DNA of 64,000 nucleotides from positions 124,001 through 188,000 of the forward strand of contig JADBKN010000051.1 in NCBI GenBank assembly GCA_014896375.1, in the 5' to 3' direction. This DNA is from Bacillota bacterium. GTDB taxonomy: Bacteria > Bacillota > Sulfobacillia > RBS10-35 > Bu92. This document shows, piece by piece, positions 32,453 to 62,875 of this stretch. Under the pieces are notes generated by a model. It had not been told where the DNA came from, did not search any database, and saw only the letters and a list, made by a program, of their open reading frames with translations. The number at the start of each line of letters is the position of its first letter. Position 1 is the stretch's first letter. Both the position numbers and the translations under genes were made by a program.

Positions 32453-32521
32453 GCCCTTGCGCCTCCTCTCCTTGACAACAGGAAATTATTGGCGGATCAT
32501 GCGAGATGAAGGTGATGAGAG

Positions 32522-38959: not shown

Positions 38960-40981
38960 CTAGCCAGGTAGCAGCACGCAGTCGCAGCCCTCGTGAATCG
39001 GCGGGTGGCCGATGTGGGAGTGCGGCACCAGCGGCGAGTCCGTGCCAGGCGGCATCAGTTCCTGGCCGGCCTGCACGAACCACTCGTTGACTCCCACGCG
39101 CATCCCATCGAGATGCTGGCAGTAAGGGCAGCTCTCCCCGACCGCCGCCCAGCGGAGGGCCAGGATGCCGGCGGCCGCGTAGACCGCCTTGGCGATGGCG
39201 CCGTCCATCCGGACGACCTCGTGCTGGGCCTCGCGCGCCGGCTGCTGCTCGTCGAGCTGGTCCAGTTGCGCCTCCACCGCCTCCAGCGGGTCGGCCCCCT
39301 GCTCGTAGGCCTGCTCTACCGCCCCGCGCACGGCGCCGAGCACCTGGCCCGTGTGCCGGATCGGGTAGGCCTGCGTGTAGCCGGCAGCCGCCTGCGCGAT
39401 GCGGTCCGCGTCGGGCTCGTGGCCCACCTCGTCCGCCACGGCCCGCGCGATCTCATGCGCGTAGACCTGGTGGACCGGCTCCACCTGCCGGGCGACCCAG
39501 CCGCGGTGCTCGTCGGACGTCAGATAGCGGATCAGATCGGTCTCAAAGTCATGGCGAGCGCGGGACGCCAATGCCCTCCGGGCGAGCTTGCGGATCTCGC
39601 GGACCTCCTCGGAGATGATCCGCTTCGCGGACCGCTCAAAGGCGGGCGCGTAGGCGGACCGCAGCCGGCGCCGGATCTCGGCCGCGTGCTCATCTGCCGA
39701 CCGGGACTCAAGAAGCCGGGAGCGCCCCGCCGCCCCGCCGTCTCCGGCGGTCGAGTCCTGCGGAGGCGCTGGCGGAGCCGCGTGCGTGCCGGCCGGCACC
39801 ATGTTGAGCGGGACGAGGTACTCGTCGCCGCCGTCGATCGGGTCCATGTCCTCGAGCTCGCGGACGTCGTTAGCCGAGAACCAGCCCCATTGCCGGGCGA
39901 TCGCATAGGCGCGATAGCGACTCTCCGTATCGCCGCGCAGCAGGCCCTCGACCGAGAACCGCACGAAATACGTCCGTCGCTCGGCCTCGGTGAGAAGCCG
40001 CTGCTCGATGGCCTGCTCCCAACGCACGAGCCACGGGCGGACGGAGTGGACGACGAACTCGATGCTCTGCTGCTCGATATTGCTGAAGGTCGCCCGCTCC
40101 AGGTCGCCGAGCAGGTGCGGCGGGATGCGGAAGATGCGGGCGATCTCGGCCACCTGGAATTTTCGGGTCTCCAAGAACTGGGAGTCTTCCGGCGGGATGC
40201 CGATCTGCTGCCACTCGAGGCCTTCCTCGAGGATGGCCACCCGGTGCGCGCGGTCCGGGCCGCGGTGCAACGCCTCCCAGGACTCGCGCAGGTTGGCGCG
40301 GGCCTTATCGCTCAACGCCTGGGGGGCCTTCAGCGCCCCGCCGGGCATGCTCCCATTGCCGAAGAAGGAGGCGCCGAAACGTTCTGTCGCAAGCCCCAGC
40401 CCGATGGCCTCCCGGGCCATGCGAATCGGCGAGTAGCCGATGACGCCGTCTCCCGACAGGCCGCGGATATGCAGCACCTCGCCGAGGACTAGCTCCTGGC
40501 CGCGCTGGTCGCGGTACGTGTAGCTCAGCGTCCGACCGTCCGGCCCGACGATGACACGCACGCGGTCGGGCCGGAGAGGCCAGAGCTCTAGCACTCGGCC
40601 GGCACGGTCCCGCACGACCTCGGCATAGGCGTTGCCCCATAGCAGGAGGTGGCCCATCATCACCTCGCGCAGCTCGAAGCTCGTCATCACCGGGTTCGGC
40701 CTGCTGTGGAGCACGTCGTACAGCGGATGGTCGGTCGCCCGCACCTTGGACCGGCCGTCCTGGCGATAGACGTGGAGCGGGAGGCTGGCCACTGTCTCGG
40801 CGAGGACGCGGATGGCGGCATAGACCGCGGAGTACGTGAGCGCCGTCTGCTCGTTGACCGTGACCCCGGACGCCGCCGGCTCGCCGCCGAGCAGCCACTC
40901 CCGAAGGGCCGAGTCCGGCTGCGCGAGCGACGACCGCCGCCCGATCAGGGACGCAAGCGTCTGCCAGATCGCCATCCTCAC
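38960..40981 (-). CDS. Portal protein fused to MuF-like minor head domain
   Basis: N-terminal HK97 portal (ALTYSAVYAAIRVLAETVASLPLHVYR) and C-terminal ALRWAAVGESCPYCQHLDGMRV...HPPIHEGCDCVLLPG. Confidence 0.85.
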   Translation of the reverse strand: MRMAIWQTLASLIGRRSSLAQPDSALREWLLGGEPAASGVTVNEQTALTYSAVYAAIRVLAETVASLPLHVYRQDGRSKVRATDHPLYDVLHSRPNPVMTSFELREVMMGHLLLWGNAYAEVVRDRAGRVLELWPLRPDRVRVIVGPDGRTLSYTYRDQRGQELVLGEVLHIRGLSGDGVIGYSPIRMAREAIGLGLATERFGASFFGNGSMPGGALKAPQALSDKARANLRESWEALHRGPDRAHRVAILEEGLEWQQIGIPPEDSQFLETRKFQVAEIARIFRIPPHLLGDLERATFSNIEQQSIEFVVHSVRPWLVRWEQAIEQRLLTEAERRTYFVRFSVEGLLRGDTESRYRAYAIARQWGWFSANDVRELEDMDPIDGGDEYLVPLNMVPAGTHAAPPAPPQDSTAGDGGAAGRSRLLESRSADEHAAEIRRRLRSAYAPAFERSAKRIISEEVREIRKLARRALASRARHDFETDLIRYLTSDEHRGWVARQVEPVHQVYAHEIARAVADEVGHEPDADRIAQAAAGYTQAYPIRHTGQVLGAVRGAVEQAYEQGADPLEAVEAQLDQLDEQQPAREAQHEVVRMDGAIAKAVYAAAGILALRWAAVGESCPYCQHLDGMRVGVNEWFVQAGQELMPPGTDSPLVPHSHIGHPPIHEGCDCVLLPG

Positions 40982-40989
40982 CGCTCCCG

Positions 40990-43563
40990 TCAGATCGTCA
41001 GAATGCCGCGCTCCTCGTACACGCTGCGCTTCGGCTGCTCGTGCCGCATGGCGCGGTCGAGGGCCATGATGAGCGCCACCATACCGTCGATGCGGCCGCT
41101 CGACTTGGCCTTGTTCGGCTTGATGTTGCCGGCCGGGTCTTGCGCCACGACCATCGAGTCCGCCTGCCAGCGCAGGACCGGGTTGCCGCCGTGACGGAGC
41201 AGCCCGCCCACCACGAGGCGCATGAGCTCCTTCGTCGGGGCCGAGAGCGTCGCGAAGCCCTGCCGGACCTGCACGACGGTGAAGCCGTCGTCCTGGAGCT
41301 GCAGGGCCAGCTGCGTCGCGTTCCAGGGGTCGTAGGCGACCTCCACGACCTTGTAGCGCTGGGCGTCCCGGTGAAGCTGCTCCCGGACGGCCTGGTAGTC
41401 GATGACGTTGCCCTCGGTCAGCCGGATGAAGCCCTCACGCGCCCACGTCGAGTACGGCACGCGGTCGCGCTGCTCGCGCTCGCGGAGGCCCTCCTTCGGC
41501 AGGAAGAACCGCGGCAGCACCGCGTAGGGCTCGCCGTCGGCCTGCGGCGGGAAGAGCAGCGCCATCGCCGTGAGGTCGGTCGTCGTCGAGAGGTCGAGGC
41601 CGACAAAGCACGGCCGGCCGGAGAGCGACTCCTCGGCGATGATGCCGGCCGTGGCGTCCCACGCCGCGAGGTCGAGCCAGCGGCTCTCCTGCTGGGTCCA
41701 CTGGTTCAGGTGCAGGCGCCGGAAAGTGTTCTGGTAGGCCGGCACCTCTTTGGCTCGCTTGGCTTCCTGCTCAAGGTAGTCGAGCTTGACCGTCTGGCCG
41801 AGGCCCGGGTTCGCCTTCGCCCACACGGCCGGGTCGGTCCAGTCGTCGTCCTCGTCGGCAGCGGCGATGAACGCGAAAAAGGACGGGTCGTCGATGATCC
41901 CGTCCATGACCTTGCGCGCGTACTCGTGCTGCTCCCAGCAGATGCTGTTGCGGTCGTAGCCGGCCGTCGTGATCGCCACCACGAGGGGCTGCTCCCGAGC
42001 GCCCGTCGCCGTCGTCAGGACGTCCCACAGCTCGCGGTTCGGCTGGGCATGCAGCTCGTCGAAGATCACACCGTGCGCGTTCAGCCCGTGCTTTGTGGGG
42101 GCATCGGCGGACAGCACCTTGTAGGAGCTGCCCGTCTTCGGCACGACGATCGACCGCTTGTAGACCTCGCACCGCTTCCGAAGCGCCGGCGACGCCAGCA
42201 CCATCTGCTTCGCCGTCTCGAACACGATGGCGGCCTGCTCGCGGTCGGCCGCGGCCGAGTAGATCTCGGCGCCGGGTTCGTTGTCCGCAAAGAGCAGGTA
42301 CAGCGCGATGCCGGCGGACAATGTGCTGTTATGGGTGGGGATGAACCCGCGACCAGCCAGGTACATGCCATCGGCCCGCGCCACCTGAATGCAGCGCGTC
42401 GGCACGCTCGGCACGCGGCGGACGTCGACAACCTGAATGGTCAACGATCGCGCCGTAGCTCCGGTGCGCGGCAGAAGCCTGGATGCCTTGCGCTGCAGCC
42501 GGAACGGCGCGCGGTCGGCTGTCGCATTCCACGACAGCCGGTACTTGACGCCGCAGTCCCGGCCGTTCAGCGTCGCACGGCCCTTTCGCAAGGTGGCTTT
42601 CCAGCCGAGGGATCTCACGAGCTGCAGGGCGTCCAGCGCCAGCCTCTCATTCGTGGTGGTGAGCTCGCAGCGCGGGATGCCTGATCCGCGAATGACGCAG
42701 CCGTCGGTATCCATCAGCCCGCGCAGGAGCTCCATACGTTGCTCCTCAGACGCGAGCAGATACGCCTCTGGGATATGCTTGTTCCCAAGCACGCCCAGCT
42801 CGCGCAGCGCCCGCCTCAGCCCGCCGTTGACGGCATACTGGTACTTCCCAATGGGCCGAACATCATACCGGGCCGCGAATGCCTCCACGACCTCCGGGTC
42901 CGCGCTCGTCATGCGCGCGGCACTCGTGTCTCCGTCGCCCAGCCATGCCCCGAGCAGGTATGGATCGATCGGCAGCTCCCGCTCCGGTAGCCGCAACGGA
43001 GCTGGAACCCGCACACTGTAGCGCCGCTCATTGTGCGTAGGACGGTTGCCGATGTGGAAATTGCCCGCCATGGTCTTCGTATCGACGATCACGACGCGCT
43101 CCCTGTAGCGGTCGTGGACCGCCCACAGGTGGTCGGCATCGGCCGTGATCACCTGGCCATCCGAGAACACCACCTCATAGCAGTCGTGACCCGTGAAGAC
43201 CTCGGAAACGGCAATGACGCGCGTCGGTAGCCCGTCAGGCCCGTACACCTCATCGCCTACGCGGATGTCGCCCATCTGCACCCACCCGCGGGCTGTCAAG
43301 ATGGGCGTATCCACGGCCAGCGCTTTCCCGTTCTTGCGCGGGACCTCGATGTAGGCGCGCCGATACCGCCGTGTGCCGTCCTTGCGCTTCCATCCGAACA
43401 GCGGCCGGATGATCTGGTCGCGCTGCCAGTCCATGAGCTCGAACCTGGCGCCGGCCCAGCGGCCCTTCGTGTGGCGGAGAAACCGCTCGAAGAACTCCAC
43501 CACGCGGTCGGCCGCCGCCTCGTCGAACCAGAACTCAGCCGCCGAAGAAGTCATCTCCGTCAT
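40990..43563 (-). CDS. Terminase large subunit (interrupted by intein)
   Basis: Exteins join as YIEVPRKNGK|STLSAGIALYLLFADNEPGAEIYSAAADREQA; HGVIFDELHAQPN; FVGLDLSTTTDLTAM. Confidence 0.93.
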   Translation of the reverse strand: MTEMTSSAAEFWFDEAAADRVVEFFERFLRHTKGRWAGARFELMDWQRDQIIRPLFGWKRKDGTRRYRRAYIEVPRKNGKALAVDTPILTARGWVQMGDIRVGDEVYGPDGLPTRVIAVSEVFTGHDCYEVVFSDGQVITADADHLWAVHDRYRERVVIVDTKTMAGNFHIGNRPTHNERRYSVRVPAPLRLPERELPIDPYLLGAWLGDGDTSAARMTSADPEVVEAFAARYDVRPIGKYQYAVNGGLRRALRELGVLGNKHIPEAYLLASEEQRMELLRGLMDTDGCVIRGSGIPRCELTTTNERLALDALQLVRSLGWKATLRKGRATLNGRDCGVKYRLSWNATADRAPFRLQRKASRLLPRTGATARSLTIQVVDVRRVPSVPTRCIQVARADGMYLAGRGFIPTHNSTLSAGIALYLLFADNEPGAEIYSAAADREQAAIVFETAKQMVLASPALRKRCEVYKRSIVVPKTGSSYKVLSADAPTKHGLNAHGVIFDELHAQPNRELWDVLTTATGAREQPLVVAITTAGYDRNSICWEQHEYARKVMDGIIDDPSFFAFIAAADEDDDWTDPAVWAKANPGLGQTVKLDYLEQEAKRAKEVPAYQNTFRRLHLNQWTQQESRWLDLAAWDATAGIIAEESLSGRPCFVGLDLSTTTDLTAMALLFPPQADGEPYAVLPRFFLPKEGLREREQRDRVPYSTWAREGFIRLTEGNVIDYQAVREQLHRDAQRYKVVEVAYDPWNATQLALQLQDDGFTVVQVRQGFATLSAPTKELMRLVVGGLLRHGGNPVLRWQADSMVVAQDPAGNIKPNKAKSSGRIDGMVALIMALDRAMRHEQPKRSVYEERGILTI
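42328..43323 (-). mobile_element. Intein (332 aa) with LAGLIDADG-type homing endonuclease in terminase Walker A; class 3-like
   Basis: Starts ALAVDTPILTARGW (Ala1), ADADHLW, endonuclease YLLGAWLGDGD and LLRGLMDTDG, ends RCIQVARADGMYLAGRGFIPTHN followed by Ser+1. Confidence 0.92.
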
Positions 43564-43999
43564 CCTTCTCGTCCGGCAGGCTCAGACGCGCCCTGGCGGC
43601 CGGCGACAGGCCGAATTCCGCGACGTACTGGCGGAACGCCGCCGAGTGGTCGCGGACGATCTGGCTGGCGGGATGCTTCCGCGTCACGCCCTGCTCGTCG
43701 ACGCTGAGGATGCCGTCCTTCTTGATCCGGCGCGCGGCTTTCACGGCCAGGACGTAGTGCGTCAGAAGCATGGCGAAGGCCGGGCCGTCGACGGCAGTCA
43801 AAAGGCCCAGGCGCTCAAGCTCTGGGCCGATCTCCTTCCAGAGGGCTCGCGCCTCCCGCTCAAGCCAGGGCGGCGGATCAGGAGCAACTGGCTTGGGCTT
43901 TGGCTCGTTCGCCGGTAGGGGCCGCTTGCCCGGATTGCCGGCCAGGACCTTCAGATGCGTCGGTTTCGGCTTCCGTCCCGGCGTCGCCATCGCCCTCAC
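43535..43999 (-). CDS. Terminase small subunit, P27 family
   Basis: GRKPKPTHLKVLAGNPGKRPLPANEPKP..PPPWLEREARALWKEI. Confidence 0.9.
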   Translation of the reverse strand: MRAMATPGRKPKPTHLKVLAGNPGKRPLPANEPKPKPVAPDPPPWLEREARALWKEIGPELERLGLLTAVDGPAFAMLLTHYVLAVKAARRIKKDGILSVDEQGVTRKHPASQIVRDHSAAFRQYVAEFGLSPAARARLSLPDEKDDGDDFFGG

Positions 44000-44638: not shown

Positions 44639-45181
44639 TCAGGTATTGCATGCTTGTGCGAGTTCCTCTTGGAGGCGCGCTCGCCGCTTCAGCGCGTGAG
44701 CCAGCTTCCTCTGGATCCTCTCCTCGGTCAAATCACGGCGCCACACGTAGACGATGACGACGCCATGCTCCAAGGCGATCCGGTGCTTGACCTTGTCGCG
44801 CTCCTGCTGCGCCTTGAACGCCTTCGCATGCCGGTGGTAGCGCCTTTTGGCATGCTGAGCTCCTTGGTACTCGAAGGCGATGCCGAGGTCCGGATAGTAT
44901 CGATCGAGTTCCAGGTGATAGCCCGTCGCCGGGTTGCGCAGCCAAGGAGGGCGGCAATTGTCGAACTTCCGCTCTCCTGGGAGCAGCTTGTCGAGGATCT
45001 CCTTCATCCGCTGCTCATGGGCCGACCTGTCAGCGCCCTTGCGGGCCATGTTCGGCTCGATGCGTAAGAGCTCGCCGGTCTCCAGGCTGTAGACCATCAC
45101 ATCGCTACATGACCTGTCATAGCGGCGCTTCAGCATCTTGCCGGGTCGTTCGCGCCCGTAGGCGTAGCGGATTCTCCCCAT
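44639..45181 (-). CDS. Vsr/PD-(D/E)XK-like endonuclease, probably a free-standing homing-type nuclease
   Basis: LELDRYYPDLGIAFEYQGAQHAKRR...QQERDKVKHRIALEHGVVIVYVWRRDLTEERI. Confidence 0.6.
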   Translation of the reverse strand: MGRIRYAYGRERPGKMLKRRYDRSCSDVMVYSLETGELLRIEPNMARKGADRSAHEQRMKEILDKLLPGERKFDNCRPPWLRNPATGYHLELDRYYPDLGIAFEYQGAQHAKRRYHRHAKAFKAQQERDKVKHRIALEHGVVIVYVWRRDLTEERIQRKLAHALKRRARLQEELAQACNT

Positions 45182-45280
45182 CGCGGCGCAGCCCCCACCT
45201 CGCAACGCTTGTGCGCCAGCCCCCACCCTGGCTCACGGCGCAGTCACCCTCCCGGCTCACAGCCGGGCACACCAACGAAG

Positions 45281-60895: not shown

Positions 60896-61468
60896 ATGGA
60901 CAGGCTCTTCAAGATCGTCGCCGACGAAGGCATAGACCTCGAATATGCAGACTTATCCGGCGCGCCCAGGAAGCTCCTGGGCGTGTACTATCCCCGGCCG
61001 CCGCTGATCGTGCTGGACCGCAGCGTGGAGCGCAACGTCCCGCTCCATCGGTCTGTGCTGGCGGAAGAGCTGGGCCACCACTTCACGGTGCCGCGGGCCG
61101 ACGTCGCCTCCGCCTACACGAGCTACAGCGCCCAGGTGGAGCTGTCGCGCGACGAGCGACGGGCGCTGCGGTGGGCGTGCGACATGCTGCTGCCGGTCAT
61201 GGAGTTCGCAGATGCGGCGGCGACCCTTGAGGCGGACATGCCCCTCGGGGCCGTCGTCGAGCAGTTGGCCGAGATGTTCGTGGTCACTCCCTGGCTCGTA
61301 TGGCGCCGCATCCATTTCCTCCGAGAGGACATGCGCGCCAAGGGGCTGCGGGTCAAGCCGCGCGACGTCTTCGCGCCCCTGCTTGTGGCCGCCCGTTGGG
61401 GTGCGGCCGCCATCACGGCCACGGCGGGTGTCGTGTCCATGTGGTCCAACCTGGGAGGTGCAGCGTAG
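60896..61468 (+). CDS. ImmA/IrrE-family metallopeptidase
   Basis: HRSVLAEELGHHFTVPRADVASAYTSYSAQVELSRDERRALRWACDMLLP. Confidence 0.8.
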   Translation: MDRLFKIVADEGIDLEYADLSGAPRKLLGVYYPRPPLIVLDRSVERNVPLHRSVLAEELGHHFTVPRADVASAYTSYSAQVELSRDERRALRWACDMLLPVMEFADAAATLEADMPLGAVVEQLAEMFVVTPWLVWRRIHFLREDMRAKGLRVKPRDVFAPLLVAARWGAAAITATAGVVSMWSNLGGAA

Positions 61469-61469
61469 G

Positions 61470-62591
61470 ATGCCCGGACACTACCGCTGGAACGCCAGCC
61501 GCGACGCGTGGGAGGTCGTCGTCGACCTCGGGACCATCGGCGGCCGCCGACGCCGCCGGACGAGGCTCGTGCGCGGTTCTGAGGACGAGGCCAAAGAGGT
61601 CCTGGCGGACATGCTCCGGGAGGTGCAGGAGGGCGTCCTGCCGAGCTCGCAGACGGTGGCATGGTACCTGATGCGCTGGATCGAGGGGCGCCGGGACAAC
61701 CTGAAGCCGACCGGCTACCAGGCGTACGAGCGCGCCATCCGGCTCCACATCGCGCCGCGGATCGGCCGCGTCCGGCTCGATAAGCTGACGGCCGTGGACC
61801 TCCAGGCGCTCTATGCCGACCTCCGCAAAGCTGGCCTCGCGCCGAAGTACGTGCGCTTCGTCCACGCCACGCTCCGCAAGGCCCTGGGCGACGCCGAGCG
61901 AATGCGGCTCCTCCGCTATAACCCCGCCGCCGCCGTGGAGCCGCCGCGCGTCCCACCGAGGCGGGAGCTACGGACGCTCACCCCGCAAGAGGCCGCGATG
62001 GTGCTGGCCGCCGCGAAGGACGAGCGCCACGGCGATCTCATCATTGTGGCGCTCCTCACGGGCCTGCGCCTGGGCGAGCTCCTTGCGCTCACCTGGAGCG
62101 ACGTGGACCTCGACGGCGCCATGATCCACGTCTCAAAGAGCGTCTTCGTCAGCCGGCAGACGGGCGTCGTCGTCGGGCCGCCGAAGACCAAGTACGGCGT
62201 TCGGGACGTGGCGCTCGTGCCCCAGGCCGTGGCGGCGCTTCGCCGGCAGAAGAGGACGGTCGCGGAAATGCGCCTCGCGGCCGGGCCGCGCTGGCACGAC
62301 CACGACCTCGTCTTCCCCGCCCGCGACGGGCGGCACCTCGCCCCGCAGGCCGTCTCCCACCGCTGGGAGCACATTCGCCGGCGCCTGGGACTCGACGGCG
62401 TGCGGTTCCATGACCTTCGGCATACCTGGGTCACGCTCTCGCTCATCGCCGGCGGCGACCCCCTGACCGTGAGCCGCGAGGCCGGCCACGCTTCGCCCGG
62501 CTTCACCCTCGATGTGTACGGCCACCTGACCGTCGAGGCACAGCGCCGGCGGGCCGATCTCCTGAGCAAGCTCCTGGGCGGCGAGGGCTGA
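61470..62591 (+). CDS. int: Tyrosine-type site-specific integrase
   Basis: LTGLRLGELLALTWSDVDL, HDLRHTWVTLSLIAGGDPLTVSREAGHASPGFTLDVYGH. Confidence 0.95.
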   Translation: MPGHYRWNASRDAWEVVVDLGTIGGRRRRRTRLVRGSEDEAKEVLADMLREVQEGVLPSSQTVAWYLMRWIEGRRDNLKPTGYQAYERAIRLHIAPRIGRVRLDKLTAVDLQALYADLRKAGLAPKYVRFVHATLRKALGDAERMRLLRYNPAAAVEPPRVPPRRELRTLTPQEAAMVLAAAKDERHGDLIIVALLTGLRLGELLALTWSDVDLDGAMIHVSKSVFVSRQTGVVVGPPKTKYGVRDVALVPQAVAALRRQKRTVAEMRLAAGPRWHDHDLVFPARDGRHLAPQAVSHRWEHIRRRLGLDGVRFHDLRHTWVTLSLIAGGDPLTVSREAGHASPGFTLDVYGHLTVEAQRRRADLLSKLLGGEG

Positions 62592-62709: not shown

Positions 62710-62764
62710 GACTCAAAATCGTGTGCCCGCAAGGCGTGTGGGTTCAAATCCCACCTCCGGCACC
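62710..62764 (+). tRNA. 3' half of tRNA-Leu(CAA), attR-like remnant
   Basis: GACTCAAAATCGTGTGCCCGCAAGGCGTGTGGGTTCAAATCCCACCTCCGGCACCA: anticodon loop, variable arm, T-arm, 3' acceptor and CCA but no D-arm/5' acceptor. Confidence 0.75.
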
Positions 62765-62875
62765 AGGTTTGAAATGCTTGAATGGCGCGGCCTTCGGGCC
62801 GCGCCGCTCGTTTTTGGACCGGGCGCCGATACGGGATCGATGGCCGGCGCCGCCCGCCCCTTCATCCACTGCCCG

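Follow-up and report, generated by a model that had tools for sequence, protein, structure and literature searches.

A predicted class 3 intein at TerL1-a in the terminase large subunit of a Bacillota prophage

A gene for the large subunit of a phage terminase (TerL), carried in the genome of a Bacillota bacterium, encodes a precursor in which the Walker A motif of the packaging ATPase is split by an insert that begins with alanine. This locus raises the question of whether the insert is an intein and, given its first residue, by which route it could splice. Here, we analyse the insert within the window (the whole 64,000-nucleotide stretch of DNA under study) and conclude, with little doubt, that it is a class 3 intein of full length and functional appearance, and that it occupies TerL1-a, the classic P-loop site, in the TerL of a prophage. 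The features discussed are collected in Table 1.

Table 1. TerL precursor gene, its insert and the adjoining genes, in window coordinates. W-C-T denotes the Trp, Cys and Thr signature residues; fractions refer to the 38-sequence alignment and the set of 78 viral relatives.
Feature	Position	Strand	Support
Terminase small subunit (context)	43535..43999	-	phrog_83 4e-44
TerL precursor ORF, 857 aa	40990..43563	-	Pfam TerL_ATPase 3.3e-26, TerL_nuclease 3e-54
N-extein, residues 1-80, last residue the Walker A Lys (PRKNGK)	43324..43563	-	
Insert assigned as class 3 intein, 332 aa, precursor residues 81-412	42328..43323	-	
His65, block B:10	43129..43131	-	invariant in both sets
Trp67, block B:12 (W of W-C-T), precursor residue 147	43123..43125	-	37/38 and 78/78
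First LAGLIDADG motif, LLGAWLGDGD, intein residues 123-132, acid D130	42928..42957	-	
Second LAGLIDADG motif, LLRGLMDTDG, intein residues 199-208, acids D205 and D207	42700..42729	-	
Cys311, block F:4 (C of W-C-T), precursor Cys391, predicted initiating nucleophile	42391..42393	-	invariant, 38/38 and 78/78
Thr330-His331-Asn332, block G:5-7 (Thr is the T of W-C-T)	42328..42336	-	
C-extein, including Ser+1 and the stop codon	40990..42327	-	
Portal protein (context)	38960..40981	-	phrog_12 2e-141

The insertion and its splicing class

The reading frame of the precursor is uninterrupted over its entire length. Pfam assigns the flanks of the insert to the TerL ATPase and TerL nuclease domains and the insert itself to LAGLIDADG_3. 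The surrounding packaging module is normal, with the small terminase gene upstream and the portal, protease and major capsid genes downstream. A 195-aa open reading frame near the terminase genes (44639-45226, minus strand) has weak HNH/homing endonuclease matches (phrog_559, 3e-11; phrog_9084, 6e-5) and is possibly a second mobile nuclease.

The translated insert starts with ALAVDTPIL and ends with GFIPTHN, after which Ser follows. Its excision yields PRKNGK/STLSAGIALY (the slash marking the joint), which corresponds column for column to the intein-free TerL sequence ..IPKKQGK/SELAAAIALY.. (three TerL proteins aligned). Because the alignment is with uninterrupted proteins, it fixes the insert at exactly 332 residues between the Walker A Lys and Ser, and it bears out the original prediction both in the motif restored by removal and in the Lys/Ser joint within Walker A. 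Queried with the joined exteins, 2925 phage records were matched, the highest identity being 52.8% to one unbroken piece without an insert. The insertion point, directly after the invariant P-loop Lys and before the next Ser/Thr, is TerL1-a, which Kelley et al. 2016 (PMC5050341) defined in mycobacteriophages.

A tblastn search with the intein matched 764 phage records, the best of them at 6e-83 over the full length. Among solved structures, the closest in sequence are the class 3 DnaB1 inteins 6bs8, 6rix and 6riy (E ~1e-30), with matches spanning the N-terminal 71-72 and C-terminal 38-47 residues, i.e. both intein termini. The number of phage matches and the similarity to solved class 3 inteins together exclude chance. 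In a profile search, the class 3 DnaB1 inteins of Mycobacterium smegmatis and M. chimaera were retrieved at ~4e-39.

The class 3 hallmarks are complete in the insert: Ala1, His65, Trp67, Cys311, Thr330, His331-Asn332 and Ser+1. Those named in the original prediction (Ala1, Trp in DADHLW, Cys in TRCIQV, Thr in IPTHN and Ser+1) are all present, the cysteine it numbered C391 being Cys311 of the intein. The block B numbering, His65 and Trp67, is shared with Msm DnaB-1, Mle DnaB and Bvi IcmO, and in those class 3 inteins alanine at His B:10, at Trp B:12 or in place of the +1 nucleophile stops splicing (PMC5222942).

An alanine start is also common to class 2 inteins, so that misreading of an intein of class 1 or 2 as class 3 has to be weighed. 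Class 1 demands Cys, Ser or Thr at position 1 and is ruled out by Ala1. Class 2 inteins (KlbA) combine the Ala start with Asp F:4, Ser G:6 and Cys+1 (PMC4031507), whereas the insert has Cys F:4, His G:6 and Ser+1, together with Trp B:12 and Thr G:5; class 2 was rejected for this reason. The top matches, moreover, are proven class 3 inteins, and we regard the chance of such a misassignment as negligible. A bacterial intein-like domain was likewise discarded, the +1 nucleophile being present. Assignment to class 3, as originally proposed, is upheld by comparison with the solved class 3 inteins, and equally by the two sets of relatives described below.

Relatives, fold and endonuclease

Conservation was assessed in a 38-sequence alignment, composed of the window intein and relatives found in phages, on viral contigs and in genomes, and in 78 distinct viral relatives, which were collected with a profile and ranked by profile similarity and are therefore close relatives rather than all inteins. 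Thr330 and Asn332 are as invariant in the alignment as His65 and Cys311, and Trp67 is absent once. Among the 78 close relatives, W-C-T and Asn332 are found in every one, Ala1 in 72 and Ser or Thr at +1, as expected of class 3, in 77; D130 is kept in 73, and D205 and D207 in all. Residue 1 of the relatives is mostly Ala and otherwise Gly, Pro, Leu, Met, Gln, Asp, Arg, Val, Ser or Cys, a wide tolerance consistent with Cys F:4 driving the mechanism. Individual W-C-T inteins start with Gln (L059), Asp (L030, L074), Arg (L032), Met (L012) or Pro (L013, L077).

Two of the relatives, L014 (IMG/VR 3300009636_000055) and L025 (IMG/VR 3300005613_002390), combine W-C-T with Cys1 and hence possess two possible initiating nucleophiles; in L025, Met also replaces the His before the final Asn. 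Both could serve to probe class 1/class 3 intermediates. The TerL intein of Vibrio phage VCO139 (L079) is class 3-like except that the block B Trp is missing (EDHINIVQ).

Modelled by AlphaFold with 10 residues on each side, the intein folds into a HINT splicing domain and a two-motif LAGLIDADG endonuclease (pLDDT 89.4, pTM 0.89). Both LAGLIDADG motifs reported in the original prediction are intact, retain D130, D205 and D207, and lie in the matching fold of this high-confidence model. In a Foldseek search of the PDB, PI-SceI (the VMA1 intein) ranks first (E 3e-19), and the class 3 inteins 6riy (M. chimaera) and 6bs8 (M. smegmatis) reach TM-scores of 0.85-0.88 by target length. PI-SceI, the best whole-chain structural match, shares the two-part architecture but is a class 1 intein (Cys1) in another host protein and at another site. 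The DnaB1 inteins of M. smegmatis (6bs8, 6own) and M. chimaera (6rix, 6riy) share the splicing domain, His65/Trp67, Cys F:4 and the THN end; unlike the window intein, they were solved as mini-inteins of 139-146 aa that lack an endonuclease, and they sit in a replicative helicase.

Closer counterparts are the TerL inteins of cluster E mycobacteriophages (Easy2Say, Goku, Toto and others), which agree in gene, P-loop Lys/(Ser or Thr) site, class 3 residues and LAGLIDADG domain and are 48-51% identical to the window intein over its full length. They differ in having Thr at +1 where the window intein has Ser, in a host TerL that is 38% identical and in their actinobacterial hosts. Same-phylum TerL inteins from three genomes (L057 in G192, L059 in G128 and L060 in G395) share site, W-C-T and LAGLIDADG, with exteins 37-51% identical to those of the window, but the inteins are just 38-42% identical, and L059 begins with Gln.

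No mycobacteriophage protein hosts inteins more often than TerL, and class 3 examples have been reported from these phages (PMC5050341); in 2020, a survey of nr yielded 1701 class 3 inteins, of which 82.5% carried LAGLIDADG (PMC7891396). The window intein adds to this published and common class of TerL P-loop inteins and is a textbook case without novelty. The unusual character that the original prediction implied does not hold, Ala1 being the usual first residue of the group.

The prophage and the history of its intein

The same 332 residues are encoded a second time in the assembly, at C7:94547-95542. Around this copy, C7 matches the window from 32456 onwards over at least 51.5 kb at 99.998% identity, the sole difference being one 1-base gap. 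Identity ends at window position 32455/32456, which corresponds to G000 C47:156455/156456 versus C7:105414/105415. At this point, the start of a tape-measure-like gene, the window prophage is cut and abuts DNA without a phage-family match, whereas the C7 phage runs on through a tape-measure-like protein, tail and amidase-like genes (named from their translations) to an attachment repeat at tRNA-Leu(CAA). Direct repeats with the 3' end of tRNA-Leu(CAA), 96% identical over 96 bp, are located at window 62710-62804, C7:75066-75160 and C7:115866-115961, and are likely the attachment sites of a prophage of ~41 kb; a tyrosine integrase gene at window 61212-62591 adjoins the first of them. The junction at 32455/32456 is most likely an assembly mis-join or a duplicated contig rather than evidence of two prophages. 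The second copy was accordingly dropped as a sign of intein spread and, being identical within a 51-kb identical block, leaves one independent sequence.

Comparison of inteins with exteins suggests a different history for each. The nearest intein, that of Easy2Say, is 51% identical and its extein 38%, whereas L059, the nearest extein with a same-site TerL intein, shows the reverse (extein 51%, intein 38%); for L057, of the same phylum and at the same site, the values are 47% for the extein and 42% for the intein. In the intein tree, the window and Easy2Say group together with support of 100/97, and the intein data reject a grouping of the window with the L057/L059 lineage (AU p 0.006 and 0.003). 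The extein tree is poorly resolved, and the extein data do not reject the intein grouping (AU p 0.096 and 0.187); for this reason, acquisition of the intein through homing transfer between phage lineages is likely but only suggested by these sequence comparisons.

Whether such an intein still splices and homes could be doubted on two grounds. Prophages degrade, and decayed inteins are known at the same site, e.g. L061 (G088 C12:96164-97179), a TerL class 3 intein in a same-phylum genome with an in-frame TGA and a broken frame. The window intein, by contrast, has an open frame, every residue required for splicing and both endonuclease motifs; strong scores are obtained for both extein domains, and in the C7 phage the packaging and tail region is unbroken and the attachment sites match. 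We therefore consider decay very improbable. A splicing domain that still works beside an endonuclease that has ceased to cut, or has lost its terL target, would leave the intein to vertical inheritance only, which would suit the sporadic and divergent occurrence of its same-site relatives. This possibility deserves more weight than decay but is still unlikely: D130, D205 and D207 are intact and folded with high confidence in the model, and the relatedness of intein and extein differs in the way that transfer would produce. That homing is active is no more than an inference from the intact motif acids and the divergence between intein and extein.

Proposed splicing pathway and implications

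The splicing mechanism of the M. smegmatis and M. chimaera class 3 DnaB1 inteins has been established by experiment, and the steps proposed here for the window intein are carried over from proven class 3 inteins (PMC5222942, PMC7664689, PMC4031507). In the unspliced precursor, Walker A is split between Lys80 and Ser+1, and the packaging ATPase should be inactive. Cys311, helped by His65 and Thr330, would directly attack the Lys80-Ala1 peptide bond, with Trp67 in a presumably structural role. The N-extein would then sit on Cys311 as a thioester (the block F branched intermediate) and pass to Ser+1 (the block G branched intermediate), whereupon cyclisation of Asn332 would lead to ligation of the exteins (...PRKNGKS...) and restore TerL. 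The LAGLIDADG domain in the middle would cut terL genes that lack the intein at their P-loop codons, and homing would then spread the element.

Since Walker A is split and the predicted chemistry depends on a single thiol, that of Cys311, the intein could conceivably act as a regulatory switch that blocks DNA packaging under oxidising conditions. By analogy, the DnaB intein of M. smegmatis is stress-responsive (PMC6195587); we nevertheless hold a switch to be improbable.

Full-length and well formed, this class 3 intein resides in a prophage of high GC content that is not one of the well-studied mycobacteriophages. Its divergence and that of its host protein run in differing directions, as would be expected of homing between phage lineages.
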